Shown in pieces: positions 17,778 to 60,700 of a stretch of 64,000 nucleotides of DNA. The DNA comes from Apostichopus japonicus (Eukaryota > Echinodermata > Holothuroidea > Aspidochirotida > Stichopodidae): assembly GCF_037975245.1 (NCBI RefSeq), contig NC_092570.1:9881501-9945500 (forward strand), given 5' to 3'. The notes beneath the pieces are model-generated. The model worked only from the letters and a program-made list of their open reading frames with translations. It ran no database searches and was not told the origin of the DNA. How positions within the stretch are numbered: position 1 is the first letter of the stretch; each line of letters opens with the position of its first letter. Position numbers and translations under genes: made by a program.

Positions 17778-18220
17778 TTAAAGAAGCAAATAAGCATTGT
17801 TCTCTGGCCTGGGTTTTGGTCTTGGTGGTAGCTTTAACAACAATTCTTTATATCCTTTCTTCATGAAAGACTTCTCCATGCTTACTTTTGACTTCTGACG
17901 ATTTGATGCTAGGTTTGCTTTATCACAATAAGAGTGATTCCTCCCCAGGTTGCTTTCATACTGGTCAGAGATAGGCCACTCAATGTTTGACCACTTCACT
18001 GTTTGTGTTACTTTCATGATGTGCCTGAAGATGGCATTGTGGTCTGGTAAATCCAACCCTTGGAAGACAACAGGAATTATGTAATCTTTATAATTATTCA
18101 CCACTTCAAGAGAAATGTTCACCTCGTAAGAAGTGAAATTTGCTCGCACATATTCTGGGGATAGGACCATGATAAATCGACGACTCTGTTGAAGTGCTTC
18201 CACCAACTGGACCGCTGTGC
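17778..18220 (-). CDS. Receptor exon 7: C-terminal half of TIR and tail
   Basis: The exon enters in phase 1 (acceptor CCATTCTCCCTCAG) and ends TAA. It encodes TAVQLVEALQQSRRFIMVL, later IIPVVFQGLDLP, and a tail rich in Lys and Pro. The usual box 3 Phe-Trp is Phe-Met. Confidence 0.93.
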
Positions 18221-21200
18221 CTGAGGGAGAATGGAAATAGAGAAACATGAAAGACCAAGCAAGATATGAAGGAAAAATTAATAGCTGAGGGCATGTGGTT
18301 CCCAACATCTGGACACTAAAATAACATAAACATACATAACCAAATCATGACCTGACTCAAACATCGAAGGGAGAATGAAATAGCACATTAATTATTGGTT
18401 AGAATGCTAAACAGTCACCTAACATGGTATACAAGTCCTGTGCACTCTGCACTAAATTAATCCTGAAATCTCTTCATTGCTTCTGTCCAGATTATCCAGA
18501 ATGCAACAGGGTTGTGATCTGTGGTGACACAGTTGCAAAGTACCCTGGCATTCTGTTGGGTGCATATCGAACCCTCCATCACCCTCTCCCCTACTCCCTC
18601 TGCTTCCTGTCCCACCCATGCCCAGCTGAGAAATGGTTAATATCAAACACGACCAAGAAATAGGTAAATATAGCTAGTTTGCCATTTCTCAGATTTGCAG
18701 GGTAAGGGGAGAATAAGTACTGTGAAGATAACTTAGCAGGTATATTGTACTGTATGGCAATGGAAGGCTAATGATAAAGAGAAAAGTTGTCTACACTATT
18801 GGCTGCCCCTTCTCAAAATCTTGTCCCCAACTCCTCATATGGCTCACTGAATGTAACTCAGTTAGACTAGCTATGCCCCCTAGATGGTCTGTGATGTAAT
18901 CAGGGTATATACTCTTAAAATGTTTTGCTCTCCTCTTATTAGTTCCCTGTTTTAGATCAACATTTACACATTTTTTTAGTCACTGTCAACTTATGGACAG
19001 ATTCTAAATGGATCACATAGACAAAGATTTTTAACAGCAATATTTATTATCTTTGGATAACTACTAATAAGAACAAAGAGGATATACTTACAACCCCCTG
19101 GGACGTTGTCAATCTCCGGGACGTAGACTCGGTAACCTCTCTTCTCCAACGTGGATTTAAGACAAAGAACAAAGAGACGGTCAACATCGCTCCAAGCGTA
19201 GGAGATGTACGCATCATACGAACGACCATCTGTTAGCAAAATCAGAATTATATGTACAAGTCAATTTCTGTTTATTAAGGGGATGGTCAATTATTTACAA
19301 ATTTTACTGGAAATAGGATATCAGAGGTTAAACACACTGAAAACACATTTTTACATTTGGTTGAAACTTTTTCCAGATTCCTGATCACTCACATGTCATG
19401 TACGTGGATAATCGGATAGCTGTCACTCTGACTATGAGATCTCCACGGTTACAATCTTTTAGTTGCGTGTAAAACAAACCATCATGGGGCACTGTCACAT
19501 GGGTCTTATCCAGTTCCACGAAATCTGACAAGCTGTTGCTATGAGTTTGGTAGCATAGGAATCACAAACGGTAGCTATTAGCGGTACCATGATTTCACCA
19601 CCGTAAGTTTGTTTCTAATTATTGGAGAAGACATAGTTTATGAGACACTTGTGTGGAATTTTCCAAGTCAAAGAAACTGTTTCAAACACTTCAACTTGTT
19701 TTGTTTCTAAAAACATGTTTTTGTTTTAGTTTGAGCCAATCATCCAGTGATCATGTTACTTTGATTCGGATGTTGGTATAAAACAGCATGTAAGGACTTA
19801 TATATGACAGTTGTCTCATCTGCTAGAAAGCTGGAGAGCTTCATTAGTGAGTTGCAATCATTGTAGTACAATACATACAATTCTGTGTCCAACACATTCG
19901 ATACAAATACTCCATTTTTGCTTTGTAAGTCATTGAAATTTTGCCTAATTTGCCTTACTTCCTGGGGAGATTTTGGTGGAGTATATAGTACCATACCGTA
20001 TAATATTTAATGCCGCACTTAAACCACGATACCACCATACTGTGACAATTTCAGCCTTTCGTGATGAAATGTATCTTACGACTGAACATTTATTCTATAC
20101 AAATATACTGTGGATGTTAAGAACTACACATGGTCATAACATGTACCTCTCTAATATGTACACCTGATAGACGATTAATAACTTCTTGGGGAGGTAAGAA
20201 CTCTCTTAGATATTCTATATAATAGACTTAATGTTCTGAATTTCATCAGGTAAACTCTTTTTGTATTATAATCGGAACACTTTTCCAAATGAATAAATTT
20301 ATATATCTAGGACGATTTTTGTAAAAACACATAATTTTTTTATTCTAAAGCAAAACCTATTCGGAGGGCAAAAATTTCCACATAATCTGCTTTGCCATGA
20401 AAAAGACGACTCCTTGAGCATTGCATAATAAATAATTTTATGCTTCAATATCAGTAATATCAAATAACTGAAGAATCCATCGAGTGAGCTCAGTCCTTAT
20501 GAAAAATAAATAACATAAACTGTTGACCAAAAAGGAAACTTAAAATAAAATAAAAATGTTAGCAAACTGCTTATCCACTAGAGAGCCTGTGTAAGAGAAT
20601 GTGTAAAAGTAAGTTGGCCTGACGTTTCGATCCTAGCAGGATCTTCTTCAAAGGCTAAATGACAAGTAACAGTCACAGGAGGGACAAAAACACGCACAGA
20701 ATACACAGGTTAATGGGCATGGTGAACAAAAAGAGATACAGTAGATGTAAGGGGATTAGTAGACAAGGGATGGGGGGGAGAAGAAAGAAAGAAACCAACA
20801 GTGGAAGAGGAGAGGTAGACTTGTAAGATGAGTATGGCCTTTTTATAAGTTGCCAACAATAAGCCACTATGCCAACGAGTCACTTTGCCAGTCACAATGA
20901 GCCATGTTACAGTTGACCAAAGGTTACCCCCTCGGCAACTGAATACCCTATCTAGAGGAGCTATGAGAACAGTCCACAAAACATTACAAAACATATTACA
21001 GACCTGTAATAAGAGGATGGAGGTGGAGAGACATGACTGGAGAGATGGAGGGGGGAGAGAGGAAGAAAATGAGAATTCATCTTACCACTAACTTCTGGTT
21101 TTCCCAGATTATCCTTAATAAACAGCTGAAGATCCACTCCAATTAGAGACCAAGACAATATACAGAGAAAGGTGATGAATACAATGCCAAAAACAAGGCT

Positions 21201-24200
21201 TATGATTGGTGGAGAGTCGACTTCTACAGGCCCTTGGGCAGCTAAAGATGTCAACAAACAAACAAAAGAAGAAGAAGAAGAAGAAAAGGAGAAGAAATGT
21301 TCATATTATTCTTTTGTCTTCAAATCATGTTACATGAATTGACAATACTGGTATAAATTAATGTAACTAAATTGCTGTAAAAGTGGCAAAGAATTACATG
21401 AAACATACCATGAACTTTGGTGTGATTTGATGAAGTTCAATGTATCTGATAACCTCAATGTAGTGATGTCATCATACAAGTCAAGTTGTGTTAGTTCTTT
21501 TCATATTCCTGTATTATTTTTCATAACATCTTCTACTTTCATACTTCCAACATTGACCTCATATGCAAACATGATAATGTATTCAGGAAGACATTAAAGA
21601 GTTCCAGATGACCAATTGTGAAGTTTGGAATACATGAGGGAAACCCCCTCCCAGCAGTTACTTGCATTTAAATACATTACAAATGCAGCACAAGTGTAGT
21701 TTGGCAAGCTAATAGCCCTGGCTGAAGTTAATACTAGAGATGGAGAGCAGTATAAATCTAAACAGAGTCAGTGCTTACATGGTTTGATGACAGGGAATCG
21801 TGTGACATAATACCACAATGATGAAAGAAAGACAGAGGGACATTGTTTGTTGTTGGTAATTTAATTTGAGATCCATTTTGAGATTTTCACATTTTGCCCT
21901 CTGCTGATCCCAAATGACCCCCAAAACACTATAGGGTCATTCTTGTACTCATTATCGGAAAGCCACATGCAAAATATGAGAGCATCATGCAGTCTCCTAT
22001 CTGGAGATATCATGTTTACAAGGATTCCAAGTTTTGACCCCTGGTGACCTTATATGAACTCTGACCTACACCAAATTGTGCAACAACTTTACACTACATA
22101 CAGCTATCATACCATGCATATAGAGCTTCTTTGATGATCAGGTCCTGGAGATTGAGCATTTTGGGATTGTTCATGAATCTTAAATTTACACATCTATCAC
22201 AAATCAGATCCAGAATATTTAAGGTACAACTGACTGTTCTAATGGATTCCAACAAATTAGTATGAAAACTTAACATTTCACACTAGCAACATTGAACATA
22301 GCACAAAGAGGTAGTAAGCTTGAGGCAAACAGGTGAGATGTTAAAGATGCACATTAATAGTTATTCTCATTTTTTTTTTCTTCCAAGTTTGTGTACAATT
22401 ATCTACCTCAGGAATTGGGATGGATCAATAAAAATACAGCAAATCCTTCAGGTAAAGTTGGGATCCAATCCATTCAAGAAAAATTTTAAAAAAAAAAAAA
22501 ATTAAAATTTTTTAAAAATAAATAAAAATGAAGTGAAAAATGATATTCAATTTTCTTGTCATTGTGAAACATGACATCACACTGTGGCAATTTCAAATAT
22601 CAATTATCACCACAAAATCTCCATGAAAAAAACTCACTTTCACGTAGAACAAATTCTATCTTATGGTAGGGAATTCCCTCGTCACATTCATTGGCAAGAG
22701 TTAATGTGTATGTGCCGGACAGGTCCTCCTCTGTTACTTGACTAAAACGAAGAGTGGCGAGTACTTCCTTTGTGTTACTTGAATTCCTTGAACAATCTGC
22801 ACTGAAAGAGAGAAAGGGAAATGTCAGCAGTTGGTTGTAATTGGCCAGATGGATATTAAGAAATTATATCTCTTTCTCCCTGCTGCTACACCCTCCAAAC
22901 CCTCCTCTCTCCATCACTACCCCCCCCCCTCTCAACCCCCATGTACCACCAGCACTAAATTAAACATCATGAGTGATTGCAGTCATTGCATTTAACATTT
23001 GTCAATCAAATGTTGTGCAAAAATCAAAGCATCAAGTTTATTTAGATGGTTCAACCTTTGTAATACATATATCTACACAGAATTGTTTGAACTGGGTGCT
23101 ATTTTGATGAAATAAAACACTTTCTTGGGAATCACATTCTTCCATAAAGATATATTGCTGGCGTAGTCAAACACATTTGTTAGATCATGTTTAGTACTGA
23201 TTCACAGTGACACAATTGTCCCTAAAATGTCAAGGACTTGTTGCATTCATCTACATGCATTAATTAATCTACAGGCATTAATTAATCTACAGGCATTAAT
23301 TAATCTACAGGCATTAATTAATCTACAGGCATTAATTAATCTACAGGCATTAATTAATCTACATGCATTAATTAATCTACAGGCATTAATTAATCTACAG
23401 GCATTAATTAATCTACAGGCATTAATTAATCTACAGGCATTAATTAATCTACATGCATTAATTAATCTACAGGCATTAATTAATCTACAGGCATTAATTA
23501 ATCTACAGGCATTAATTAATCTACAGGCATTAATTTATCTACAGGCATTAATTAATCTACAGGCATTAATTAATCTACAGGCATTAATTAATCTACAGGC
23601 ATTAATTAATCTACAGGCATTAATTAATCTACAGGCATTAATTAATCTACAGGCATTAATTAATCTACAGGCAGGCAAGACACTAAAAGGTCACTGCAGT
23701 GACTAAACCTAATATTTAGTCAATATTTTAGGCTATAATCAGCAGTTTAAAAAAGTTTTCATGCATGTTGACTAAATTGATTTATATTGCAACGACTTTT
23801 GGTCAATACCAATGTGAGAAATTTATTGGGCTACAGAATGTATAATCTTATTAATTATTTTTTATTTACTCACTTATTTAAGGGATATTCCCGTGGTCTA
23901 GTTTGATTGCTAATTACAAATGCTGGAATGGTTTTGCATGTTTCCTCGTAGCACTTTTGTGGTGCTATGGTATGAATTTTTCAAATGTGGTGGTACTTTG
24001 ATATCAATGCATTTGGGTCAGAGCAAAGTGTTCTCTTATAATATTTATTAAATATTAAACTCCGTTATCACAGAGGAAATCAATTATTCCACAAAAAATT
24101 GGTTAAAGTTCTAAATAGAGAGAAAATTGAGAGCTAAGCAAACATTCCAAATGTATGATGACGTTCCAGGATAAACCATCACAAAAATTTAAAAATTAAA

Positions 24201-27200
24201 ATAGGAAAAAATTTAGCTTTCGTAAGAACATTACTATGATGAGATCACAGATATGCAACTATGGTGATCCACTGCCCATTAAGAGGCAATCAAATATATA
24301 TGGACAGTCAAAATAAAATAACATTTATCAACCATACCTTGAGTTAGGGACAAGATACTGATGAGAAGGGGGTGTTCCACTAACAGTGTAGATTGTTCTC
24401 TGCCAAAGGAGTATCGTTTAAATTGGATGTATTTGCTTGATTAATGGCAACCTTGGTAACTTGCATTAGGTTTGGAAATATTACTGACCTTGCTAGAACA
24501 AATTACTGCTTTCTATAGCTGTCATCATATCATTTCTCACAAATAAGAAAACTGTGCATACTGTACCCAACATGTAGTAAGTTACAAGCCATCCAAATTT
24601 TGCCGACAAGGTACATGTGGGGGAGGGGGAACATTCCCCCAAACATGATACTTGCTCCCATCCACAGGACCCCATCAGGAACCTGAGACACATTCCAGAG
24701 AAATCTCAGTGTAACTCATCTTTCTGACATGTATACTTTTGTACTCCAAAATCGCTTCCGTCAGAAACAATGTAAGAACTATTAAAAAGTGCTGAAGCTA
24801 GCTTATTGGGGCCCTGCACATTTGATTGATTACACAAAATACGTTATGAAGCAAGTTACCACCACTTTTGCCTGTTCATTTTTTCAAAACATTGCTAAGC
24901 TAGCCTCTGCAGTTGGTCACAAACAGCCAAGTCCGCCTCAAAATTGATCAATAGTTCCCTCTTCAAAAATGGTGAATGTACGACTGTGGGTATATGCACA
25001 TTAAAGTTTTGTCAAACTAATGAATTTTCACGCAAAAGTTAAAATTTAAAAGTTAATGTATAAAAGAACAAGTTGGTTCTCCAATGAAGCCTGTAATTAC
25101 GGGTTGGTAGGAAGTATTCCCTGTGACATTATTAAGCTATACGTTTAAGAGCTACTTTATATGTCGCGCACCAACATCATTACTGTTTGGTGCATAGCCT
25201 GTATGTTCAAGGATCGGCCTCTTGCGATCTGGCCTTCCGAGTGTTAACCTCTCAATACATTTCTGTAATTCTTTATAGAAGTATTTCTGTCTTTATTTGG
25301 ACATTGAACAACATATTACCTGGTCGGTAACATTACATTCCCTACCCCCCTCCCCCTAAGTTTTCTTGTCATGTGCACTTTATACAAGTGTGTTTTTAGC
25401 TCCCTGGCAAACAAAATTTTTGCTTGCAGCCCACTTGTGTTATTGATGATATCTATATCTTTCTTGTCAAATGACACCCAAACCCACCTTACATTCAAGC
25501 AACTTACCAAATATCTGCCTGTTGTTCATCAGAGCAGAAAGGGATGGCTGTAGAATTTGGCGTGCTGAAAAAGCAAATTTCCTGCTCCCCTGGCATAGTA
25601 GCATACCACATCTTCTGGTACGGCTTTCCAACCACCAAGGAGCCTGACTCAGATTCATGCAACTCAAAATGTATATCCATACACACTTCTCTCTCTGTAA
25701 AGACAAGATGACAAAAACATATTGAACAAAGTTTACTACAAGCCTCACATTATTTGGAGAGAGGGGGGGGGGGGTTAAATGTGTTAAAGAATTAAGTACC
25801 AGAGACCTGGGACATCAAGATTCAGGTTAGACCTCTTCAATTTGTCTTAAGTTTCTGATGAAAATGACATTATTCTTTGCCTCATATTTCTCTGGGTCCC
25901 CTATCCCCTCCCCCTCATCAGGTTTTCTTGTTCTCTTCTTTTCACAATCGGGTTTTTTTAAGGTTTATTACCAATTTACCAGAGTTGTACCAATTGTATG
26001 AAGTATTACTCAAAGAAGGTTATAATGTATTAAGGGATTCTCTCCAGATGAGGTCATATGCAGTTGGATAGGCTAAAATGACAATTTAGGATGAAAGGGA
26101 TGAGGGCTTATTTTTCTCAGTTTCATTTTTACTGTAAACTTCAGACGTACCGTACTGAACTACAGGTAACTTTGATCAGGTTTTGAACACCTACTATTCA
26201 GTAGTATGGTATATGTTGTACTGCTTGTGTTGGCATACAGTAGCTGCAGATGAAGTTATTCTGCAAATTGTCAATTGAAACACAGTGTAGAAATTTACAT
26301 TTTATCAGCATTTAAAAGGACAAAGTGTAGGTCACCAGATCACAATTGAAATCAGTCATCAACCAATACATCCAACTTGTGACAGGAAGCTATACCCATT
26401 GAACTCTAGAAAGTAACTTTCATTGTCAACAGGATACAAAACTTGCAATATCAGTACACTGCCATGCATCGACTGGTATACAGTCGTTTCACTTTCGGAG
26501 AAACAATACTGTAGGTCTCGATGACTTGAAGTATTCACTTTACCTGGATTCCCCTCGACCTGTTACTACAGATAACCCTTTGGGGAACATTCAATACTAG
26601 ACTTACTTAATTGTTAAGAGTAAAATTGACTTGTGTTGCAACTCTACAGTACATGTACACAGACTTCACCACATCAAAAGAATGGTTGGGGTAGAGGAAG
26701 TAGGGGTGTAGCCAGGGGGGTAGGAATTGCTTCCAAAAAGATGGGGGCAAAACATCAGAGGGGCACTTTCTCATTCCACAACCACCACTCGTTATGCTAT
26801 GAACCGATACACACTGGCAGTATCACTCAAATAAATATGATGTGTTAGTATGCTACTGTATCAATACTATTTATTGAGATTTTTTGTTAACCGTGCTACA
26901 AAAAAATATGGGATGCCATTTTGAAAATAGCATGTAAAGACTAAAAATAAATTATTAAAATTAAATATTAAAATTAACAAAGGCTTGAGATTTCCAAAAC
27001 ACAGTTCTTTATCAAAGGGGCACATTTTATTTGCCAGTAGGGCACATTTGCTATTTTGGAAAAAAAGTGGGGGCACGTGCCCCCCCGCTCCTTTCCCCCT
27101 GGGTGTAGCAGACTGAACTGTTAGCGGAAACTAAGGAAACAATGTACAAACACCTGCGTGACAACCCCATCAACGCAATGACACAGTGAGCACTCCATAG

Positions 27201-30200: not shown

Positions 30201-33200
30201 AAGTAAAATCCCTCAGGATACCTCCTCTACCTGAAAGTGACCTACAGTTGCTTTATTGGGTTGGAATGTTTCTTTGTGTATATGAACTTCCTCTAACATA
30301 GATGTAGATTGAAGTCAATAAAACTTTCCAGGGCATCCTTTTATCAGTATATTTGTTACCTACACAATATTCATCCAAGGTGACAATGTAGTAAAGATGG
30401 AACAATTCCTATTCAGAGATGTCTGTGAATGACTGCTCACATTTTATGTGGGCCCAACAGACACTGACTATTCATTGCACAGAAAATAATTTTAGTCTTA
30501 GATATGAAAGCATGACATATACTGTAGCACAGTGAAGCCTCACTCAATTTAGAAAACATACAACTGATCTTTCTCAATTTCAAATTATGCCATCCTGCTA
30601 ACAGATTAAAGCTAAACTGATAATTTAACATCCTTTTTTGTTGATAGTCATAACAAACTTGCCTCATTTAATCTCTGACATGCAAAGAAACAGTATAATA
30701 CACTATCTAACGTTTTGTTATGAGATAGAGGACAAATATGATAACAAGATATCTCATGGTCTTATACAACTTCCTTCATTTCTCCAATTGTTTTAAAAAT
30801 TCATATCAAACCGCACTGCACAATTTCTAACAATTCTTCAATTCCTAATTTCATGTGTAGTCAGGTAAACTCATTTAACAAAATCATGCCTTAGAGGCAA
30901 CTACAGCACCTTCAAGACAGGATATATACCAGGATTAAGCATAAAAAGAAGATTTGGGAATAAAAAATAAAAAGGCCCTTTTTGCTCATCCTAAATCTTC
31001 TAGTTATGTAATACTTATTTATCATGTATTCACATACCAATGTAACTTCAAGCAGTTCAATTACATTGTATTCTAAGGGAAATTAGCTTTCAAAGTTCCA
31101 ACAAGTGAATTGATCCAAGAAGTGTTGCATCACCTCATTAAAACAATCTTTTATGTGTTTATTGACATAATTCTGTATATCATTACTGTTTAAATGAAGT
31201 CTGTATTGGTCCCAAATTATAGCATGCTATAATAACCAGAAGTACCAAGTAGTAGTAGTACCAAGTCAGTTAGCTTACCATCGTCCATCTGGCATGGTAT
31301 GTGATCTGTCAAACTCACAAGGACTGTCTCGATGCTATGGTGGGTTCTACATGCTGATTGGCAACAATCAAGTATCTGATTGTCAACCAAATGTTCCCTA
31401 AGCTAACTGGAAGCATCACGCTCCATTGTTTTTTGAGACATAAGGGAGGTTTGATATGGGTCTGTAATTCTACAGAATGTTGCGATCCAAGCCTGACTTC
31501 TTCAAGATTGGACGTACATGCGCGACTTTCAAGGCATCAGGCACAAAACCAGTTTCAAACATGGTATTGAGATGTTGGTGATGGCAGGAAGAGCAACTGG
31601 CGAACACTTCTTCAAGAAAAGGTGTCGGTATTTTGTCCAAATCGCAAGACTTGGTTCCAGGTGACTTGAGGATGATAGATTTGACATTGTCAATCGTTAC
31701 TGGACGAAGAGAATCAAGAACAGTAGTGTGATCAGCAGCTGACGTAGGATGGCCAGAACTAGCTTGGGTAGCTTCCAAGCTTGAACAGAGGTGATCCACC
31801 TTGTCCTTGTAGAAGTGGCTGGAATCATTCACAAATTGTTGAAGAGTTCATCTGTGCGCTGAAACCCTTTTTGAGAATCCCCTCGGCAATCCTCAACAGG
31901 ACCAGATTAATGTGTCGATTTGGCACATCAGAGACAGGATTGCACAACTTGACCCTGCAAAGTAAAGAGGTCACGGTGGATCACAAGTTTTGAAGAACGC
32001 AACTGATTTTCTAACTGTTTGCGAACGTGTTTCTCTTGAGCTATCTCCTCATTACACCACTTTGTGTTTGGTCTAATTTTGACCACTTTGATCTTTGCAT
32101 CTATAATGGAGCTGAAGCTTCATGAATGCAACGGGAAGAAACTGTTTTCTGATTAGCCTTAGACTTCTCGGTTTGCAGTTTGCAGAGAATTGCTACATGA
32201 TCAGAAATCCTTCTGCAACTCTGACATCTGAGAACACCAAGTCATCTAGCTGTGGTGACACGAAGAGGTCAAGTGTATGTCCGTGGTCATGCCTTGGCTC
32301 ATTGATGTGTTGGGTAAGTCCATGCGATTTCAGGAGAACGCTGAATGACTGAGTTTTGGCATTACTTGTGTCCTTTGTAGGTGGCTAGAACTTCATGTGC
32401 AACATCATACTGTGGGCCAGATAATTTGCACCATTCCTCAGCACAGGCAATAACCATTTAGACCAACTGATTGGGGTGAACTTTGTTAATAACCCATCCT
32501 TCCCAGCACAGTTGACTGTACATTTGTGAGAAGTCATCATGAAACTGTCAGAGAAAATAGCAAATAAAGCATAAAGCTGAAGGCATCAAACTTTATTAGT
32601 TCACGTATATATTCATATCCATAGCTTGTCGATATAGAGACCTTGGTGCAGTGAGGCACAACGGCTGCCTACCCAGTTTACTCGCCCATGGAATAGAGGC
32701 TAGGCCAAGTGAAGTCCACTTAAACATATATCCTAGTGTTATGGTAATTTGCACAAACCTTGTAGAGCTGCCCTGATTGTTTTATCAAAACCTCTTTATC
32801 TCTTATTGATTTGTGCAGGCCTAGCCTTAATGTACAGTTGATTATAGTTAGGCCATCAATCAAGAAATTTGGCAAAAGGATAAGTCTAGCAGCTATGCCA
32901 GTAAGCTAATCACTAGGGTTAGCCTGAGCATGTATGCCTTCTAAGTTCTAACGTCACCATGAATTAAGTTAGCCCAGGCCTAGGATGGTTTTGATTTTTA
33001 TTATGTTAAACTAAATGGAGCAACAACTAATGTACTTACTCGTTAGGCATAGGCTTACGTCTAGGCCTAATGAAACTAGTGATACACAAGTCAACCATAT
33101 TTTAACCGTTTTTTTTTCTTTTAGAACCCTGTCATTGCAGCAACTCCTCGATTAGAAGTCTAGGAATAAACAACATCGGATGTATCAACGTCTGATTGTC

Positions 33201-36200
33201 CGTAATATAAGGCCATCATAAACTAGGCCAAGCATAGGCATAGCCTATATTACTTGATAAGTCTAACGTCAACGAAGACTTTGGTTAGGCAGCTATATGT
33301 AATGCAATATTGCAATCCCAACCGGCGTTAGGCGTTACGATAGTCGAGCAGTACAACGTTGCAGCGTAGGCCTACGCATATAATCAACAGATACTTTGAC
33401 CTCATTTGCCTACTATGTTATACAACTGTACACATATATTTTACCACTTTTGGCTAAGTTATCCTATTCTTACCTTTGTCACCACGTTTTCTGATCATTT
33501 GGACTGCCATCTCCCTTAGATTGGAGCAATGTATGGGCTGTATAGCCCTTTATATACAGACAGTGCATTATCTAGTCTAGCTAGCTACAGTAGATATAAA
33601 CAAAGTTTGGGCCGGGTCAATGGTCACAAGAAGCAGCCCTATGATTGGTTAGTTGCCAAAAGTCAGGCATGTCCCCACAATCAATTAAAATACCAGTTTC
33701 ACTGCAATTTGACTGTAATGTGCAAGAGCTGTTTTGTTGGCATAGTAAATTATTAATCTTATGGTTCTTCTCCGCATTTTAAGCATCAATCACACCAGTC
33801 ATCCGAAAATGTGAGCAAAGGAAGCGAAAACAAGACATGAAAGACGGCCTATTAAGCAAGTCATGAATACTTGACTTTTCAGGTTTTGTTTTTCTTTTCT
33901 TAACAGGCAGTCTTGTGGGCTTGAGGAGGTGATAATGCTACATAGTAGTAAATGGCAGACTTACTAGTATAAACAATGACATTGGCATGTCTCTCCACTG
34001 ATCCCATGTTGTTCCATGCAACACACTTGAAGATACCCGAATCTGAAGACAGAGGGTAAGACAACTTTAGCACCTCGTGTTTAGAATCCAAGGACTTAAC
34101 ACGGCCGTCGTCAGTCATATTAATCTCCTTGTCATCTCTGTACCACTCGATGTAACAATAGTTTGTGGGTTTACAGAAGTTAATGGTATGTTCTTCTTCA
34201 GGATAAACAATTAGCTGCTCGCTGTAGTCTGTCCCAAAGAAATAGGGCTTCTCTGAAAATGAGGGGAGAGTATATATCGTTATAAACCTGCCAGAGTGGT
34301 CTTTCAGTATTGCAGCAAAATGTCTTCTGCTACTACATAGAGAATTGGACACAAAGGACACATTCGTTGTCCGAATCAGAAGTTCAAGCATTCAAACAAA
34401 ATATTTACACATCTAACTGAAGCCTACTGTACATTTTACTAATGGAAAATATGTTTTGGCAGCAACCTTTACTGTAAGTCTATTCTACTAAAAAAGGTTC
34501 ATTTGGAGCTGAATTACTTAAATCACACTCTCTGGAAGTGATAGTATGGTCTTTAAATGAAACCTGGTCCAGGCAGCTGAAAATCAAATTAAGTTACTTT
34601 CACTCCAATGAAATGACACCAAAGATAAATGATCCAATAATTTAACAAATTTTAATTATGAGCAACCACCATAGACTATGTGAATATTGCACAGTTTGGT
34701 TAGAATGATGAATGTTAATTACAACCCAAGAAACACTGCTGAGAACTTTGTGTAACCATGGCAACTGTGCTACTGTATGTTACACAATTGTTGCTAATGT
34801 AGACGGTCACAAAAACAAGAAAGCCAGCTGGAGGCTTAGTGATTCCTTGACAAATTTCGTAGGAGGACGGTTGCTGTAATAATTACAGTGGATCCACATA
34901 CCACATATGCAGTTCATTCCATCTTTACCTTTGATGATTACTGTACAGAAAGTCTCTAAATACAATGCTTATACCCTGCATTGTGTGACATCATGAATAA
35001 TTCATGATAGAGGAGTGATGTATATACATGTACAGTAGCATAGAACTGTGGTCCCAAATCATTGAATTAGACTTTCAACACACACATAGCTAGGATATTG
35101 AGGCAAGCAGATCAATATCCAAAGCCATTGTATGCAATAAGCTAACATATGACAAATTTGTCCATTTCTGTATAGACTAACAGGACTTCCAATTAGTTTA
35201 ACAAGGAAGTCAATACCATGTCATATAACTACAGTATGGCATTTCCTTCCAATGTCACCAACACACTGTTTGAAGCCTGTCATGAAGTTGCAATGCATAT
35301 GGTGTCTATCAAATGAATTTGATATCATTAGGAGAAATAAAACACCACCATATGGCTTTAAACATTATACTCTTACGATGGTGGTATGAATAATTGTCAC
35401 CAAGTTGCAAAACACTGTTAAATTATAGTTGCTTTATCATTACTTAAATGCCTTCAAGTTTTCAGATACTGGTCAGTTTCAAAGGATGCATGAACCGCCA
35501 TCTAACAGATCTGTCATTCTTCAATGGATATTGGATTGTCTTCAAAGAGCCATTCCTTAATAGCCCACCCCCACCCTCTCCCCCTTCCTTATCATACATG
35601 GGAATCCTTACAGTGTAATTTGCAGTTTATCATAAACTTCTAACCACAGAACTCTGTTCAGCATGTATTTTACACTGGAAATGTTAATTTTAAACTAGCT
35701 GTCGAGTTACTACTCTGCAAGTTCCAAATTTTGAAAGCCAATACCATTACCAGTCACACCACCCAGGACACACACACAATGGTTAAACCACAAACTTTAC
35801 CACTGTATTGTACTACAGTGCTACTACTGCACCTCTTACAGTATGTCATTCATCTAATTTCTTGCACAGGCTGCAGCTGAGCAAATGAGAAAACACACAA
35901 ACTCTGAAGAAGGTTTCTGAGTACAAAGATCAATATGAGTGAATTTACCAAGAATTCACGTATTTCATGCGTAGATATGCATTTTGTTACCAGTCTTTAT
36001 CTCTCTATATCTCTCTCTTTCTCTGAAGTTGTTTTGTGTAACTAGGAAAATTGATAAAATTAGCAGACATACCAGTGATGAGCTTACAAACATGTATATC
36101 TCCTCAAAACTAAGCACTTCCTTAAATTACAGTGGTTCAGTCCTGTTGATTTTGTGCAACAATTGAGATCCATTTCATTTCAAATTCTTATATTCATCTC

Positions 36201-47170: not shown

Positions 47171-47241
<71 letters not shown>

Positions 47242-47320: not shown

Positions 47321-47324
<4 letters not shown>

Positions 47325-50134: not shown

Positions 50135-50202
50135 GCGGGAATGAAATGCAGAGCTATATACGGCTCTGATGAAATACTGTATAAGGATCGCCACCAGCCC
50201 GT

Positions 50203-50278: not shown

Positions 50279-50713
50279 GCATAAATATCTTTGCTCTTTT
50301 CCATTGTTTTAAAATTGCCCAGTCAGTTTCCTGTTTTTCATTAACAAAAACAAAACAAAAAAACAAGGAAGAAAATATTTGAACCCGAATGACAAAGTCG
50401 TTTTCCTGTCAGCCGGTAGTTATATCACTGCTATACACCCGTTTGCCGAGAATACCAGAAAGGGAAATAATTTGTTTGGGTCATGTGCTACTAGAAGGGG
50501 ATTTAGAATCCCGGCGTTGAGGACTTGATTCCAATGAAAGTAAATGAGTTGGTTAAAATAAGGGAAACGAGATGAAACAACAGAAACCACTCTTTTTTAG
50601 AGGTATATAGAGGTACCTAGATCGCTATCGAGGTCCTTTTAATGACTACGGTATTTATTGCTAACTTGAAATCACTACTTTGAAACATGGTATACATTGA
50701 TGGATACATGTTT

Positions 50714-50799
50714 ACATGCAGCATGCAGTCCGTTTTACAAAGTTGGGGGTGGGACACCCCCACCCCCCCCCCTCCCTCTAGTGACGTCCCCACATGCAG
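50714..50799. mobile_element. Truncated CAGGGAC-type hAT MITE
   Basis: The element 50722-50791 ends CTCTAGTGACGTCCCC, as at 12894-13023. It is flanked by an exact 8-bp repeat ACATGCAG (50714-50721, 50792-50799). Confidence 0.6.
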
Positions 50800-50869
50800 G
50801 TAACAAAATTTAAAAAGACATGAACATACCATAAAGGTTACAACAAAGGAAGCATAGATAAGTAGTACC

Positions 50870-51060
50870 TTATACCATGCACCCAGTTGGGACAATTTTT
50901 ACTATACTGTAGTGTCATGTCCCGCTATACACAGCACTCGTATTATCAGTACGAGCAGTATATGAACACAATGTTTCTATTAGATCAAGGTTAGGAACTG
51001 TTTGTACTGTCAATACTAGTGCTTTGAAGCATGATATTGGAGTACAGTTTATAGAGAGGT
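50870..51060. repeat. Dispersed repeat also present inverted at 58.4 kb
   Basis: The segment CTGTAGTGTCATGTCCCGCT to TGCTTTGAAGCATGATATTG occurs as its reverse complement at 58390-58575. A more decayed, also inverted, relative is at about 61035-61195. Confidence 0.75.
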
Positions 51061-52299
51061 ATAAGCATTAGGAAATTATCCAAACTGGCTGGGGGCCTAC
51101 ATGCCATGCATATGCATATACCCAACTTGTATATGCATACATGCATATATGCATATGTGCACATACGTGTATATTAACATAACATCATTTAGCCAAAAGG
51201 CCAAGAAGTTGTTAAATTTTGACTACTTCAAACCTGCAGTGTGCCATACGAAGTCTTGGGTGCAAATGCATAACTGTTGATTTTTTAACAGACCAATGAG
51301 AGGCCGGCGGTACCACATTCTTAAAAGCAGCCTCACATTGCAGTACATAGTTTCTTAATAACATGCTCTTTGATACAACAAGATCGACCACACAACAAAA
51401 CGATTTATGAGCTCGGCTATGGTCAAGTCACATCATTTTAGAGAAAGTCTTACAACTAAATCGAACCATTTATACTATTCCGCGCTGATTAACATAATTC
51501 TTCTTATTTTGAATGTTACTTTATAGGTTGGCTAAAGTTTCATAAATAGGTCGACCAAGCACTAAAGGCCGCTCTAACCCCATGATCAGACAGCAATATG
51601 TATACGTATACGGAATATATAACATGCGTAACACACTAGCATTACCTTAATGAGGTCACACATACAACCTCGCGTCATGCATAGACATCATTTTGTTTCC
51701 GGTTCCATCCTGTGACGTCAGACAGCTGTGACGTCATAATACGTTGCCTTGTATATTACTAGCCCACAAACTTATAACCTTAGCAACTGCTTCCGGTTAT
51801 ATCAGACGGATGGTCCCCAAAGTATGTGACTAATCGTCTTTGTTATCATTTATACTTCTGTTTCCTTGACAAAGAGATCCACCTTAAAACAATGAGGAGG
51901 TTATATATCTCTAACTATAATTATTGGTAATACTCGGCAATATTATCTAAATTGGAAGACCTGCCTCATAGCAATTTAAAATATGTAAAGTGTCTTCATT
52001 TTAACGTTTACATGGTATTCAATTTTCTAACTCGGCGAGTGCTGAAACAAGTTATTATATATGCTTATAAAAAGGAAACTTAGCAAGTAGAAAGGCCAGG
52101 GGGATCAGCTGAGAGGAGAATGGTCTTTCTTCCTAACAAATGTCTTTTTCGTTGTAGTGTTGCATTGTAACGTGCACGGTGTCATGATTTTCATTTTAAC
52201 AAAAACACCGCTTTTTTGTTTAACCATCTCACTTCCGTTGGGGAAGTTTCCCCTTCAGCCGATTCACGTGCTAGTATACAATACCATCGTACTGTAATA

Positions 52300-52810
52300 T
52301 TAAAAAAAAAAATAACAATATATTGTTATCATATTATATCATTGTACTATGTTATATGCAACAATATTATTGTGGATTTTATATTACATTATTAAGATGC
52401 AATATTATGGTATGATATAGTATGTAAATCTGGTAATATGCAACGATATTACTGTGCATGTTTTATATTATATTATTAGTAGCGATGCAATAGTATTGTG
52501 TATGTTCTATATTATATTAGTATCATGCAATATTATTGTATGATACTACGTGAATTGGGTATTACTATATGCAACGATATTACTGTGCATGTTTTATATT
52601 ATATTATTACTAGCGATGCAATAGTATTGTGTATGTTCTATATTATATTAGTATCATGCGATATTATTGTATGATACTACGTGAATTGGGTATTACTATA
52701 TGCAACAATATTACTGTGCATGTTTTATATTATATTAGTATGATGCAATATTATTGTGCACGTTTTATATTTATATTATTATTATGCAATATCATTGTTT
52801 GATACTACGT
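52300..52810. repeat. AT-rich tandem repeat, about 118-bp period
   Basis: The units contain GTGCATGTTTTATATTATAT, GCGATGCAATAGTATTGTGT and ATGATACTACGTGAATTGGG. At least two near-identical units (about 52455-52575 and 52575-52690) and partial ones are present. Confidence 0.85.
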
Positions 52811-53089
52811 GAATCGGGTATCCTCTTCCAGTTTCGTTTTCAAATCCGTATAGCAACATTTACTGAGAATGCTCTACATGAAGCCTTTACATCCACTTCT
52901 CGATCGTCATTTGTTTATGTCCTTCTAACATTTCAAAGCTGAACAACAATATCCAGGAAAATGATCCCCCTCCCCCACCCCCTCTCCGAGCCCAACCCAC
53001 CCTCCCCTCATAGATATATTTATATACACAGATACGCACACACCCACACACGAGTTTGTATACATTCCGACTGTTCGACTCCACTTACT

Positions 53090-54726
53090 ATACCCATAGT
53101 TATCCCTAAATATACCATATAGACCGCTAACTATACCCATGATCCCTAAATATACCACATAGAACGCTAACTATACCCATTAACTATAGCCTATAGACCG
53201 CTAACTAGATCCATAGTTTTCCTCAACTATACCATATAAACCGCTTACTATACTCATTATACCTAATTATACCCTATTGACCGCTAACTATACCCATTAT
53301 CCCTAACTATACCCTATATAACGCTAACTATACCCAATATCCCTAACTATATCACATATAACGCTAACTATACCCATGATCCCTAAATATACCATATAGA
53401 ACGCTAACTATACCCATTAACTATAGCCTATAGACCGCTAACTAGATCCATAGTTTTCCTCAACTATACCATATAAACCGCTTACTATACTCATTATACC
53501 TAATTATACCCTATTGACCGCTAACTATACCCATTATCCCTAACTATACCCTATATAACGCTAACTATACCCAATATCCCTAACTATATCACATATAACG
53601 CTAACTATACCCATGATCCCTAAATATACCATATAGAACGCTAACTATACCCATTAACTATAGCCTATAGACCGCTAACTAGATCCATAGTTTTCCTCAA
53701 CTATACCATATAAACCGCTTACTATACTCATTATACCTAATTATACCCTATTGACCGCTAACTATACCCATTATCCCTAACTATACCCTATATAACGCTA
53801 ACTATACCCAATATCCCTAACTATATCACATATAACGCTAACTATACCCATTATCCCTAACTATACCATATTGACCGCTAACTACATCCATTAACTAGAC
53901 CCTATATACAGCTAACTATACCCATTACCCCTAACTATACCCCATATAACGCTAACTATACCCATTCCCTAACTATATCCCATATGACGCTAACTATATA
54001 CATTATCTCTAACTGTACTATATATAACGCTAACTACACCCATTATCTCTAACTGTACTATATATAACGCTCACTATACCCATTATCTCTAACTGTACTA
54101 TATATAACGCTAACTATACCCATTATCTCTAACTGTACTATATATAACGCTAACTATACCCATTATCTCTAACTGTACTATATATAACGCTAACTATACC
54201 CATTATCTCTAACTGTACTATATATAACGCTCACTATACCCATTATCTCTAACTGTACTATATATAACGCTAACTATACCCATTATCTCTAACTGTACTA
54301 TATATAACGCTAACTATACCCATTATCTCTAACTGTACTATATATAACGCTAACTATACCCATTATCTCTAACTGTACTATATATAACGCTAACTATACC
54401 CATTATCTCTAACTGTACTATATATAACGCTAACTATACCCATTATCTCTAACTGTACTATATATAACGCTAACTATACCCATTATCTCTAACTGTACTA
54501 TATATAACGCTAACTATACCCATTACCCCTAACCATACCCCATATAACGCTAACTATACCCATTATCTCTAACTGTACTATATATAACGCTAACTATACC
54601 CATTATCTCTAAATGTACTATATATAACGCTAACTATACCCATTATCTCTAACTGTACTATATATAACGCTAACTATACCCATTATCTCTAACTGTACTA
54701 TATATAACGCTAACTATACCCATTAT
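53090..54726. repeat. 40-bp satellite with higher-order repeat
   Basis: The right part (54000-54726) is a homogeneous array of 40-bp units (ctaactatacccattatctc + taactgtactatatataacg). The left part (53140-53870) has diverged 40-mers in blocks of about six. CCATAGTTTTCCTCAAC recurs at about 53211, 53450 and 53688, a 239-bp higher-order period repeated three times. Confidence 0.95.
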
Positions 54727-55206
54727 CAGTAGCACTTTTCAAAGGACGTAATGATTCTCTTCAAATTGCATCATGGACTTGGACTTCCTTTCTTCGAGTC
54801 GTCTTAAACAAGTGTAGGCTCGCACATACACACAACAGCTGTATTACGGTCATGTTAGTATGCAATACGTACATGACAAGGTATATCTATCTTTACCCCT
54901 CCCTTAGCAATTCCCCGTTGTCGTGGAAACAGTATGAGGGTATGACATTTAGCATTATTAAACATTTTAATGGAACGAAATATGTAGGTGTTTTTTTTTT
55001 CTTTTCTGAAGATAAGGATACCGTCTTCCTTGTTAGCGTACTACTTCCTCTGAAATACTTCTTTTTGTTCACGTGGTCAATGACGCCATGCCTAATCGCC
55101 AATCGCGTAGGCCGTTAGAGTTGCGTTATGTATATTTTAGTCACTTACCATGGTGGAGTTACGTTCGTTTAGTTTGTGACCACAATATCCCTGACTCGAA
55201 ACTAGA

Positions 55207-55214
55207 TATAAATA
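55207..55214 (+). promoter_or_regulatory. TATA box of the secreted Ig gene
   Basis: TATAAATA followed by GAGG lies 75 nt upstream of the ATG at 55282. The start of transcription would fall near 55237, giving a 5' UTR of about 45 nt. Confidence 0.65.
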
Positions 55215-55281
55215 GAGGTACTTCCCATTGGTGATGCCACTTCGTTCTCGTCAAACTGGAAACTTGTAGCCGATTTCGAAA

Positions 55282-55387
55282 ATGTCAAAACTACTGTCTC
55301 AAAACATGGAGCCTTCGTCGTATTTGTTATCCCGTTCTTGTGTTATCTTAGCGGTTTTGGCGATGACAGCGATTGGATGTGAGGAAG
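55282..55387 (+). CDS. Secreted Ig gene exon 1: signal peptide
   Basis: The first ATG after the TATA box opens MSKLLSQNMEPSSYLLSRS, followed by a hydrophobic core. A second in-frame ATG (residue 9) would give a more compact signal peptide. Donor GTGAGTG, phase 1. Confidence 0.85.
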
Positions 55388-58300
55388 GTGAGTGTAAACT
55401 AGTTTTTCTTTCATTTTTATATTAATTCAATAGATTGAAAAGTTATTCTGTAACTAATAAGCTATCAGTAAAACCGTTAAAAATGGCTAACTATTTATTA
55501 TGTGAGTTACGTCTTCTTGTACAATTACGTAATTAAAAGAGTTAAGTTGTCAAACAGTCATTTTTTCCATAAACATTCGTACCTTGCAATGGAGACCTTT
55601 ATCCATTCTGACGCCAGACAAATGCCAGCGTATAACAATCGTGGTGACCGTATTGTCTTTCGAACGGGGTATCGAAGATGTTGGTGTTGTTGACATATCA
55701 TATAAATCCATAAATGATCAAGTTACAAACGGTTGCCAATTCCTTCTTTCGCTTTCTGTAAACATTTAAAATCGTCAGTTATCACGAAGCAGTTGTTAAT
55801 CTATATTCTGTTATTTCTTGCCTTGTGTATTTTAACGTTGTTACTCCTGTACACGATTGTGAATGTCAGAGACAAATGTTCTTCTCATTGGCAAATGTTT
55901 TGATAGTGTATAATTCTGACTATAGCATTATTTCTTGGCAGCCAAATGAAAAACGAAGCAATTAGAATTATCATTTGCTAATAAATAAGAACGCTAAAAA
56001 TGCGTCGTATTATTTTTGGTTACCAAACTTACCATGGAAACTATTCCCTTGGTGTCATGTATATGTAAATTCGCTAAACGACCTATACGAAGCCAACAAT
56101 ATGGTTTTGTGGTTAACTTTAATTCTGTGGGTGCAGGGAGACAAAGTTTTACGTTGCGTTTTTACAATTATAAAAAAAATTCTCTCGTAAATTTCGTCTA
56201 TACGATTATAAAGTAAATAGATGCATTGAATATTTACTTCTCAACAATGCGAGTACGCCTTATTATATTGCCCTATTTTCCCAGAGTATATATAGTCTCT
56301 CAATAATTCTCTTTAGCAAAAAATATTCCCCTCAACTTTACACTGTTACAGAGTTTGGATTTTTTTTATAATTCTTATAACGGCAAATATACATTTATAG
56401 TTAGATCCTTTCGTTACAGCAATTATACATATGTGAATTGGGTTCAAATATCCCTGCAGAATCATAAATCATCCGTCCATGAAATTTGTATGTATAAAAA
56501 CTAGCAACTCGAAGGTGTATTTTCCCATGCGACAAAAATATCCAACATTTAATACAATATCCCAACATAAGAAATATAATAAGTTGGGCTCATGTGGTAG
56601 GCCTTATACTATATATTTTTTATGTGTCTTTCGAACGAACAGACTCAAACAAACTTGTGTAATTTGAATTTTCTATTGACCTTTGAAGGCGCACCAGGTT
56701 TACCTTTTTTTAAGAATGAATACTCGATTCTTCACCACATCGATGAGAATACTTACAAAGCGATAGATTGTTCGGCCGAACAAGCTTGTCATGTCGAATG
56801 GTATAAAGATGGCGTCCTTTTCCCCTTCGGCTGGTCTGCCATGCAGCAACAGGCAATGGGCGTCTCTATGGGAGCCGACAATCAGACGCTCATACTAAAG
56901 AAAGCGGAGATGACAACCAAAGGAAACTATACCTGCATTGTGTCAAACCAGCATGGTACCATCGAACGCCATTTGGAGCTGAAAGTTCAAGGTGAGGGTA
57001 TAACATGTAGAAATCAGATGCCGTAGGTATGTGTTAAGTGCAGCAGTGGGGAAAGGGGAAGGCGGTGTCGATGCAGCAATGGGGAAAGTGAAGGGAGGAG
57101 GGGGGGGGGGGGGTCATGTCCATCCATTGTTGTGTGTCCATCTGCATCATCAACATAAGAAGCTAAAACTAAGGTTGCCAACTATTCACGAATTTGGCCA
57201 CGTTATCGAGACGATGATGTATATAATGATATCGGTATTCTCAGATCGGAACACGTCATTTTAGACAAGAAACCGAAAACTAAAGATACATATATGCTAG
57301 AATAGAAGCTGCACGTACTTGACAAACGTTCAGTATCGTCACCATCGCCAAACTAATCTCATACCCGAAGCCCCACACTTTAGTACTGTTGCCATTTGAT
57401 CACGGTGATGCTTGATATCTATAATAAAGCACTATAATCAACAGCCTGAAAGGCCCAACAGCATTTAGAAGCTGTACTTTGCGTTGAGTTTTTTTTATAT
57501 CATCGTAACACCACGTACTAGTCAAGCCTGCATGCACACATCCTCCTGAATCTTTACTTTATTTACTCAAATGTTTATGAATTGACACCCAAACGGTTTA
57601 AAACATACATATTTTCTAGTCCCACAAAGTTAACTTAATGCCCCCACCCCTTGCCCGTGTTTCATTTTCCACGCTATTGTAGGAATTTAGTGGACGAATA
57701 ATAACCGCGTTATAATACCATTGTAGTATATATTCTGTTCCCAGCTAGTACGGTTATATTTCTATTATTCTACCACTGGCTATAGTTTTTGTGAAATTTC
57801 GTATCGACCCCGATAGGATTACAAGAAACACGAATCACCTATACCCCCCCCCCCCCCACCCAATTGATGTTACCACTATACCCTGCAGCCTCCGCGGATA
57901 TTTATCGCACAGGGAACGTAGTCCATACCCCAGGCTGGCGAACAGCTATACAAGTTTACATGTATGTCATAAAAAAGAAAGGATTCGCAGTGCAAATGTT
58001 ACATAACCCACCAAGCCATTGACAGTTGGCCACATTATACTTTCTATTTTCATTTTTTAGGTAACGATTGGATTCATGAGCCCATTTTGGCTTTTGACAA
58101 CAACTGCAACCACAAGAAAACGAGAATTGGCTCTAATGTCACATTCACTTGCAAGTTCTTTGTAGGACCCAAGGAGGACGAGAGCGTAGCTTCCTGGTTT
58201 TACGAAGAAAAGGAAACACCAGATAAGACGATACATAAAAATAGTGTCGTGTGGATATGGGAAAGAGAATTAAACTACACGGTTTATGAAACATCGAGTC

Positions 58301-60700
58301 TGTAAGTAATCTTACGATTGGGGTTGCTTTCTCCACATTCGGTCCACGGTGGTAATAACCCATGATTGTTCATATTCTGTCCACCCAGCCAATAATGCTA
58401 ATACCTCTCTAAACTGTACTTCAATATCATGCTTCAAAGCACTGGTGTTGACAGTACAAACAGTTCCTAACCTTGATCTGATAGAAACATAATATTCATT
58501 TTGCTCGTACTGACGATACGAGTGCTCTGAAAAGCGGGACATGACACTACAGTATAGAAAACAATTGTCCCAACCGGGTGTTCCACCTTGCATACTAATG
58601 AATATTCAGATAATAGTTTTAGATAATAATTCAGACAATTTAGATAATAATTCAGATAATTCAGGTAATAAATATTCAGATAAAAGTCAGATAATAGACA
58701 TTGAATATATAGGCAAAGAGAAAGCGACTTAACGGGTCAGGCTCAGTCTGGGTTGGAGTTAAGTCTTGAGGAATTTTAGTCTTGTTATGTGTGTTAGATT
58801 AATGATGTAAAATATGAGCTAAATGTGATATAGCGGGCAAAAAAAAATATGTTCTAGCTTTATATCAAAATGAATTTTTACCTGAAAGTCATCCTTTGTC
58901 CCTTACTAATGGGGGAATTGGGATTGGAGAATGGCTTAAGAATGAGGGAATCCGCTCTGACGAGCAGACACTTCTATAGTGCTAGCAAGACCTGTATGTA
59001 CCGCCTGCGTGGCCCTACACTAAGTTAGCCAACAGCGTATTACATTGAGAGTACAAACAACAACCTAGATTAAAAAATTCGCAAGACATTCATCTCTGTA
59101 CTTTCAACTGTTGAAGCTCAAAAAAAATTGGAAGGTCAGTGACTAAGAAATGGCCAAAGTTAGGTCCAGCTCTGTAGAGTGAATCGTAATAAAAATAACA
59201 TTAACATCGATTTAATCTTAATGTAACGACGTTACAGTATATGAAAGAAAGTGATTGAAGAAATATACGGTGCGTTTTGGTAGACATATTTGCAGACGAG
59301 GTAGGGGGGGGGGGCGGGCGAGGAAACACCTTTTCACCCAGGTGGGGAATCTGAAATAAAAGGTTGAGAAGCACGGATCTAAAGCAATCTAATTGTTGTA
59401 TACATATCTTGTCCATACCAATTAAGTTTTCTTTGACACAGAAAATTATCTCCGAAACAAGTTAAAGTAACTTTTAAACGTACATAAATACAAAATTTCA
59501 GCAACATATTTACTAACTGCCATAATAAGGGAAATAACAAAGAGAGATGTAGCAGATAACGAATCATCACAGATGGACTCTTGAAGCTATGCTTACAAGC
59601 CTTGACATTGAACACTGATGAAATAACTTATCAGCAAAGCACTGGGGATATATCCCTTCAAAATATTATTTTTAATATTACATGAAAGTTTCCGTATCCG
59701 ATGAAAAGTGTTATCATATAGTTTCAAGGGGCAGTGAAGGGCCTGTCCGTAAAACGTAAAAAGGAAACAAAAAAACTTGACCAACTCTCAGGAACATTAC
59801 CAGATATGAGGGTTGTAGGGGGGGGGGTATCTGAGGAGAACGTTGTTTCTCCAACTGTAAGACCTCCCCGATGACTTCATGAAGTCATTTTGGTTGACCA
59901 ATGACTTAACTCTTTGCACTGTGTATCAAAACTATCTGTTGTTCTTTTCATCAGATTCTTGGACGGAAAATTATCTGTTTTTTCACTAACCATATTGAAC
60001 GTAACAGAACCGGCTTTAGGTACTTATTTCGTTCAAGCATACAACGGTATCGGACCCAGTAAACGCCATAGCCTGACTTTATCATTGCACCAACGTAAGT
60101 TTTGGTAAATGTTTATATAACACTTATAAGTTTTCATCTCTAATCCCCCCCAAAAATAAGTGAATAAATAGTAATAAACAGGACTATTTACGCAACTTTT
60201 GGAGCTGATTTTGTATTCATTATTTTGTTGTTTACCTTTTTTTTTTTTTGATGTCCATTTGTGCAAGTATTCAAACTTCAAATTATTTGAATTTAACAGC
60301 GAACTTCCTTTGGTATGAGATTACTGCGCATTTGAACAAGCCTTCGGCACTGGATTTATGGCGCATTATTAAGTGATTTATTACAGGCTGACAAATATCG
60401 CATTTACTTTCAAGGTATTAGATGAACACAGATATATCTTTGACCTCTTTTTTGAGGTTACAAGATATAGGCCTATATATCTCATATTATTTTTAATTAA
60501 ACGCAGTGCTCTTTGTGTGAGATCTAGACTCTTCAAATGTATATGTGTCAAAAAATAAAAATGCTGTGTCAAAGTGTTTCGATAATGTTATTCTATCATG
60601 ATAACATTTTTCAGCTTGCTTTGTTCCGACAGCTGAGGAAAGACGCGGCAGGTACATGCGGATTCTACGTGATCGACTAAGGACTTCCGCCCACCAGTAA
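55282..60700 (+). CDS. Secreted two-Ig protein, paralogue of the IL-1R-like receptor
   Basis: Five plus-strand exons join in frame: 55282-55387, 56689-56991, 58061-58301, 59955-60094, 60615-60700, for 291 aa. A signal peptide (hydrophobic SCVILAVLAMTAIGC) ends near residue 33. Ig 1 (36-136) has CHVEWYKDG and GNYTCIVSNQHGTIERH. Ig 2 (137-263) has NVTFTCKFF and ALGTYFVQAYNG. The phases (1; 1-1; 1-2; 2-1) equal those of receptor exons 1-4 at 38-22 kb, and the Ig 1 patterns WY.D and G..ERH are shared. The fifth exon encodes a Lys/Arg-rich 27-residue tail and a stop; no membrane helix follows, so the product should be secreted. Five N-glycosylation motifs are visible (NQT, NYT twice, NVT twice). 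By analogy with decoy IL-1 receptors it may bind ligand; that is inference. Unseen membrane exons beyond the window remain possible. Confidence 0.85.
56689..56991 (+). CDS. Secreted Ig gene exon 2: Ig domain 1
   Basis: This 303-nt exon, phase 1 in and out, has acceptor TTGACCTTTGAAG and donor GTGAGGG. It holds a complete Ig domain with both canonical cysteines and the WYKDG motif. Confidence 0.93.
58061..58301 (+). CDS. Secreted Ig gene exon 3: first half of Ig 2
   Basis: Acceptor TTCATTTTTTAG is followed by 241 nt, phase 1 in and 2 out, with donor GTAAGTAATC. It encodes GSNVTFTCKFFVGPKEDESV and SWFYEEKE. Confidence 0.9.
59955..60094 (+). CDS. Secreted Ig gene exon 4: second half of Ig 2
   Basis: Acceptor TTGTTCTTTTCATCAG is followed by 140 nt, phase 2 in and 1 out, with donor GTAAGTTTTGG. 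It encodes LSVFSLTILNVTEPALGTYF. The canonical second cysteine position is Val-Gln (YFVQAYN). Confidence 0.9.
60615..60700 (+). CDS. Secreted Ig gene exon 5: terminal basic tail
   Basis: Acceptor AACATTTTTCAG, entering in phase 1, gives CFVPTAEERRGRYMRILRDR and a stop at 60698-60700. The exon sits where the receptor gene has its membrane exon. Its single Cys could form a disulfide. Confidence 0.65.

Follow-up and report, generated by a model that had tools for sequence, protein, structure and literature searches.

A putative secreted IL-1R-like gene between two complete TIR receptor genes of Apostichopus japonicus

Organization of the locus

The DNA analyzed here, the window, is a stretch of 64,000 nucleotides (C10:9881501-9945500), and the genome searched with it comprises 671.6 Mb in 35 contigs. 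Models of two genes in the window, A and B, were rebuilt exon by exon from the DNA with exact splice sites; GT-AG is present at every one of these sites, and the frames are open. Gene A lies on the minus strand (38422-17778) and gene B on the plus strand (55306-60700), in the head-to-head orientation of the preliminary description, whose coordinates, exons, phases, and motifs for the two genes all proved correct, confirming that these observations are real. The start codons are 16.9 kb apart, and therefore, one short promoter common to both genes is not to be expected. A TIR match 27.7 kb past the window end led to the discovery of a third gene, C, a complete receptor on the strand of B that starts 13.6 kb past the window end (its coordinates below extrapolate the window numbering to the right). 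The unit of the cluster is three genes, A-B-C, with B between two complete receptors. There are no N letters in the 164 kb examined, and the longest intron in the three models is 8.3 kb.

Gene A has the architecture of a receptor of the IL-1R type, with two Ig domains, one transmembrane (TM) segment, and a TIR domain. Its signal-peptide exon (38335-38422, minus strand like all exons of A) ends in phase 1 and was found by the model as well as by a signal-exon scan. It is followed by Ig 1 in a single exon (33965-34252, phase 1-1; model and Pfam I-set) and by Ig 2 in two exons (25508-25694, phase 1-2, and 22638-22801, phase 2-1), which were placed by phase and splice sites; the first of them, taken alone, matches no Ig family in Pfam. 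The TM exon (21086-21241, phase 1-1), with the juxtamembrane sequence DLQLFIKDNLGK, matches the TM exon of C (E = 2.9e-6). Two TIR exons complete the gene, the first (19092-19229, phase 1-1) with 60% identity to C over 45 residues and the second (17778-18220; model and PDB match) with the stop codon. An intron of A also contains an open frame (31470-31847, minus strand) that by eye resembles a fragment of a non-LTR reverse transcriptase and has no Pfam match. Furthermore, a 62-base array lies inside the first intron and an 18-base array in the intron between the Ig 2 exons.

Gene B, on the plus strand throughout, begins with a signal-peptide exon that ends in phase 1 (55306-55387; model and signal-exon scan); a second in-frame ATG is located at 55282, upstream of the modeled start. 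Ig 1 is encoded by one exon (56689-56991, phase 1-1) and is backed by Pfam I-set (1.1e-13 for the whole protein) and by the shuffle test described below. The first exon of Ig 2 (58061-58301, phase 1-2) matches Ig 2 of C (E = 5.9e-8), and the second (59955-60094, phase 2-1) is the last exon of B with homology support. The proposed terminal exon (60615-60700) has an AG acceptor and an open frame of 28 residues, without a hydrophobic stretch, before the stop; it is unsupported, its codon score of -0.192 lies under the null mean, and we regard it as a guess, since nearly any acceptor yields some tail and a stop. An AATAAA is found downstream of it at 61289. A 40-base tandem array lies immediately upstream of B.

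Gene C, again on the plus strand, comprises a signal exon (77605-77704), Ig 1 (79195-79479), the two exons of Ig 2 (85240-85492 and 87227-87378), a TM exon (89329-89472), and two TIR exons (91149-91286 and 91709-92217), all extrapolated and with the exon phases of A. A and C align at 28% over 504 residues (2.6e-66) and at 39% over 228 residues of TM-TIR, which clearly marks them as paralogues, and both have the IL-1R-like layout of Ig ectodomain, one TM segment, and cytoplasmic TIR domain. The signal exon of C came from the signal-exon scan and was the sole exon candidate in the 18.5 kb from 60700 to 79190 at the thresholds used. C has a signal exon of its own, and therefore, the 5' ends of B and C are separate; the strength of this exon led us to set aside a single four-Ig gene made up of both. 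Just upstream of it, at 77.3 kb of the extrapolated window, the DNA resembles by eye the 5' part of U2 snRNA.

The signal exon, Ig 1, and the two Ig 2 exons of A and B have the phases 1, 1-1, 1-2, and 2-1 in common. The Ig 1 domains also correspond in their core (CYIEWYRD in A, CHVEWYKD in B) and at their end (GSVERH and GTIERH, respectively). Elsewhere in the window, we observed long tandem arrays (6646-8302, 23245-23673, 36219-37494, and 53100-54727), a protein kinase exon (5651-6508, minus strand; Pfam Pkinase, 3.8e-18), and two open frames (610-945 and 9424-9753, minus strand) whose near-identity suggests a local duplication.

Kinship of gene B within the receptor family

The IL-1R-like family on contig C10 forms three clusters, in which six members have TM and TIR exons and one, B, is without them; further TIR-less members could exist, the sensitivity of the search being limited. 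Genes D (C10:389785-395828, plus strand) and E (C10:441882-435775, minus strand) are complete two-Ig TIR receptors with phases as in A, and the phase pattern is identical in all five genes A to E. The third cluster is a same-strand pair, F and G (C10:17557000-17588000, 17.55-17.59 Mb), given here by exon content only, whose second TIR exons were recognized by eye and not by score. G has two single-exon Ig units, then a two-exon Ig (three Ig units in all), then TM and TIR. The TM and TIR exons of F and G are near-identical, which suggests a recent duplication. The models of A to E have two Ig domains each, one fewer than the three of the IL-1R-like family. The introns that separate Ig 1 from Ig 2 in A, B, and C were searched with 27 queries for a further Ig exon, with no convincing match; the best matches in these introns (E = 0.002-0.02) were short and of mixed kinds and serve as a gauge of how low chance goes in short introns.

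B is most similar to C, with 78.6 bits (E = 1e-20) across both Ig domains, compared to 37.4 bits with A in Ig 1 only. In shuffle tests among genes A to E (400 shuffles per domain pair), Ig 1 was related in 10 of 10 pairs (z = 7.8 to 24.5), including A-B (z = 14.5; no shuffle as high). Ig 2 of B is related to that of C, D, and E (z = 15.6, 8.8, and 6.9) and shows no similarity to that of A (z = -0.2; 240 of 400 shuffles as good). Ig 2 of A (25508-25694 and 22638-22801) has at most a weak likeness to that of any other member, the best being D (z = 3.4); it may have been replaced or be changing very fast, although the TIR domain of A is close to that of C. A whole-genome search with Ig 1 of B, in which 24 candidates were scored, yielded 11 matches with E no higher than 1. 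B itself ranked first, followed by C (4.3e-4), D (0.0018), E (0.054), a place on C5 (0.058), a place on C10 within G (0.134), a place on C16 (0.159), A (0.18, the eighth of the 11), and three more places on C16. The corresponding search with Ig 2 recovered only B and C and is, therefore, to be taken as insensitive. With Ig 2 of A and B unlike each other, the kinship of the two is carried by Ig 1, by phase and position, and by the link via C. The paralogy of A and B that had been proposed thus holds in that they belong to one family and fails to extend to Ig 2; the direct resemblance is thin, and it is C that makes the kinship sound.

Trees and AU tests took in the ectodomains of A to E, F and G being left out. 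In FastTree, the ectodomains supported a D-E group at 0.94 and a B-C group at 0.74, and TM-TIR supported the D-E group at 1.00. For both Ig domains together, the AU p values for the placement of B were 0.75 with C, 0.43 below A + C, 0.14 with A, and 0.027 with either D or E. For Ig 1 alone, they were 0.12, 0.87, 0.31, 0.045 (D), and 0.044 (E) in the same order, and for Ig 2 alone, 0.94 with C and 0.09 for each of the other four, none of which is rejected at 0.05. An earlier four-taxon run preferred B with D (0.94 versus 0.11 and 0.09) and did not exclude the others. The tree is weak in that the placement of B shifts with taxa and domain. Therefore, A is not singled out as the duplication partner of B, as had been supposed: C is closest in sequence, or B falls below A + C, and B with A is the weakest of the three placements, none of which is rejected.

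The terminal branches range in length from 0.88 to 2.67 substitutions per site (1.74 for B). Such highly diverged ectodomains and long branches point to B as an old paralogue and, together with the A-B Ig 2 score that is no better than shuffles, rule out a recent truncated copy of A. The rejection of B inside D/E on both Ig domains together makes a loss of TM-TIR in B the simplest course, provided that the root separates A/B/C from D/E. Duplication followed by loss of the signaling half, as first suggested, fits these data, in which B groups with A and C over D/E and the six other members have TM and TIR.

The number of Ig 2 cysteines is 2 in B, 6 in A, C, and D, and 5 in E, and the binding surface of B may, therefore, have changed. 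Codon usage was rejected as proof that B is coding: the scores of B (0.002) and of A, C, D, and E (0.004-0.054) lie below the null 95th percentile of 0.06-0.07 and do not separate any of the five from open non-coding stretches.

Membrane and TIR exons and known protein families

B consists of a signal exon and two Ig domains without a recognizable TM or TIR exon. In tblastn searches of 60095-77600 on its strand with 27 exon queries from A to E, no TIR match was better than E = 0.46; on the opposite strand of the B-C gap, the best was 0.22 in a search with 16 queries. As a gauge of sensitivity, the first TIR exon of A used as a query recovered C, D, E, F, and G, each at 2.3e-6 or better. A single short TM-like match in 60095-77600 (61685-61723, E = 0.008) has a stop just upstream that closes the frame, as read by eye, and chance matches of the order of 0.002 also occur in unrelated introns of A and B. 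A TM-exon scan between B and C yielded three weak candidates on the strand of B, compared to four on the reverse strand, and two of the three are one overlapping low-complexity stretch. The best hydropathy was 2.12, compared to 2.61 in the TM exon of A and 3.35 in that of C. What stands, as far as similarity and hydropathy go, is that the DNA from 60094 to gene C contains no recognizable membrane or TIR exon, and the view that B is without these exons where A has them is borne out.

The best PDB match of the A TIR domain is IL1RAP (2.5e-12), followed by IL1RAPL2 (1.6e-8), a Toll-related TIR (3.2e-8), and IL1RAPL1 (1.5e-7). That of the C TIR domain is IL1RAPL1 (8.1e-10), with the best TLR at 1.1e-4, so that IL1RAPL1, IL1RAPL2, and IL1RAP are among the best matches of the two domains. 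By score ranks, not by tree, both TIR domains appear to be of the IL-1R rather than the TLR type. Residues 88-251 of B align with IL1RAPL1 181-335 (E = 6.4e-6), in three distinct PDB sequences down to 4.1e-5; among the 43 PDB sequences matched by B, only these three have a best stretch that runs from Ig 1 to the end of Ig 2. FGFR2 (to 9.4e-10), DSCAM, and FGFR1 chains outscore IL1RAPL1 over shorter stretches. C matches IL1R2 147-270 at 5.3e-6, with titin and a large number of other Ig proteins ranked above it, and a profile of the A-B-C ectodomains had no IL-1R-family chain among the best 60 of 245 PDB matches, titin and other Ig proteins leading. The aligned part of IL1RAPL1 we take to be the IL-1R domains D2-D3, and the ectodomains of A to E would fit D2-D3 with D1 absent. 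Over its two domains, B thus looks like IL-1R-family kin, as judged from IL1RAPL1 and gene C. The evidence for this kinship from the ectodomains is modest, and the TIR domains of the neighbors carry most of it.

Several known proteins may be compared with this family. IL1RAPL1 has three Ig domains, whereas A to E have two. IL-18BP is a single secreted Ig domain that traps the IL-1-family cytokine IL-18, whereas B has two Ig domains. IL-1R2 has three Ig domains and a membrane anchor, whereas B has two and no recognizable anchor; therefore, B can be at most a secreted analog of IL-1R2. Like IL-1R2, B combines an IL-1R-family ectodomain with the lack of a TIR domain, in the case of B as judged by DNA homology search. 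It is for the missing TIR domain that IL-1R2 is called a decoy in the accessible parts of PMC9020223 and PMC12108812. DIGIRR of teleosts, presented in the accessible part of PMC9020223 as a negative regulator alternative to SIGIRR, has two extracellular Ig-like domains, as have A and C. Cnidarian IL-1R-like genes have an Ig-TM-TIR layout and several copies per genome, and one Nematostella protein has two predicted Ig domains and may be incomplete (accessible parts of PMC5094078 and PMC1896004). All IL-1R-like peptides of PMC5094078 have TM domains, in contrast to B, and the accessible parts of the two papers mention no TIR-less member.

Possible roles of gene B

Our preferred reading, which we hold as possible and still short of probable, is that B is an old paralogue within the A-B-C cluster whose secreted product competes with A and/or C as a soluble decoy. 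B would have kept the signal peptide and the two Ig domains corresponding to D2 and D3 of the IL-1R and would have lost the membrane and TIR exons (less likely, it never had them). We infer secretion, binding, and inhibition; the product may compete either by binding the receptor ligand or by forming receptor complexes unable to signal.

B might also encode a secreted relative that is not a decoy, for example, a soluble co-receptor, an agonist, or a protein that binds microbes directly. The highly diverged branch (1.74 substitutions per site), the 2 Ig 2 cysteines compared to 6 in A, C, and D, and the lack of a known ligand to trap would be in line with such a role, which we nevertheless consider unlikely: B has kept the two-domain layout and the exon plan of the adjacent receptors, and IL-18BP is a trap. 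So is the TIR-less IL-1R relative of known function, IL-1R2 (accessible part of PMC9020223).

A poorer prospect is that the exons of B serve C as an alternative 5' half, with a splice that joins 60094 to the TM exon of C at 89329 (extrapolated) and would give a receptor with another ectodomain. Both junctions are in phase 1 on the same strand, the membrane exon of C is 29 kb downstream, and the last exon proposed for B is unsupported. However, such splicing needs a 29-kb intron that skips four exons of C, compared to the longest intron of 8.3 kb in A, B, and C, and C has signal, Ig 1, and Ig 2 exons of its own. Somewhat more improbable still is a decaying, non-functional gene that has lost its 3' half. 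The missing TM and TIR exons, the lack of a codon-usage signal, and the few Ig 2 cysteines would agree with decay, but the four exons are open in frame with canonical splice sites, the number of Ig 2 cysteines is even, and similarity to C persists at the protein level although each of the branches exceeds one substitution per site. Finally, a membrane anchor or TIR domain too diverged or misassembled to be found is very improbable: the searches relied on sequence similarity and hydropathy only, and in F and G the second TIR exon was seen by eye and not by score, but the same query from A recovered the first TIR exon in all five of C, D, E, F, and G, and the region is without N.

Cnidarians, protostomes, and deuterostomes are all reported to have IL-1R-like receptors, but no IL-1-like ligand gene is reported outside the vertebrates (accessible part of PMC9020223). 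A TIR-less secreted IL-1R-like gene of an invertebrate is not mentioned in the accessible parts of PMC9020223, PMC12108812, PMC4346834, PMC3308324, PMC5094078, and PMC1896004, nor does a gene of this kind appear in open-literature titles and abstract openings among the matches listed, which does not show its absence from print. A wider claim, which we regard as doubtful, judging from the DNA of this one genome, is that a receptor cluster of echinoderms includes a gene dedicated to a secreted, TIR-less IL-1R-like decoy and about as old as the neighboring receptors. If it is true, control by a receptor plus a soluble trap arose in this family outside the vertebrates, in animals from which no IL-1 ligand is known, and the search for the missing ligand could start from B and C together. 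The encoding of a natural soluble ectodomain next to the receptors would suggest ligand trapping as part of this ancient system, and the soluble two-Ig protein could be a practical bait for fishing out the ligand of IL-1R-like receptors.

Further observations were made in the genome. A 0.42-Mb stretch of contig C9 (C9:23380732-23804616) has seven TIR matches, all on the same strand; open frames of 702-1058 residues contain six of the seven, and this group is probably a Toll-like receptor cluster. COX1 on the 16.1-kb contig C35 has an open frame of 517 residues under genetic codes 9, 5, and 13, among which code 9 alone (AAA = Asn, ATA = Ile) yields STNHKDIG and similar universal stretches, in line with the echinoderm code. 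COX1 fragments are also present on a second contig, at C29:14745-31219.
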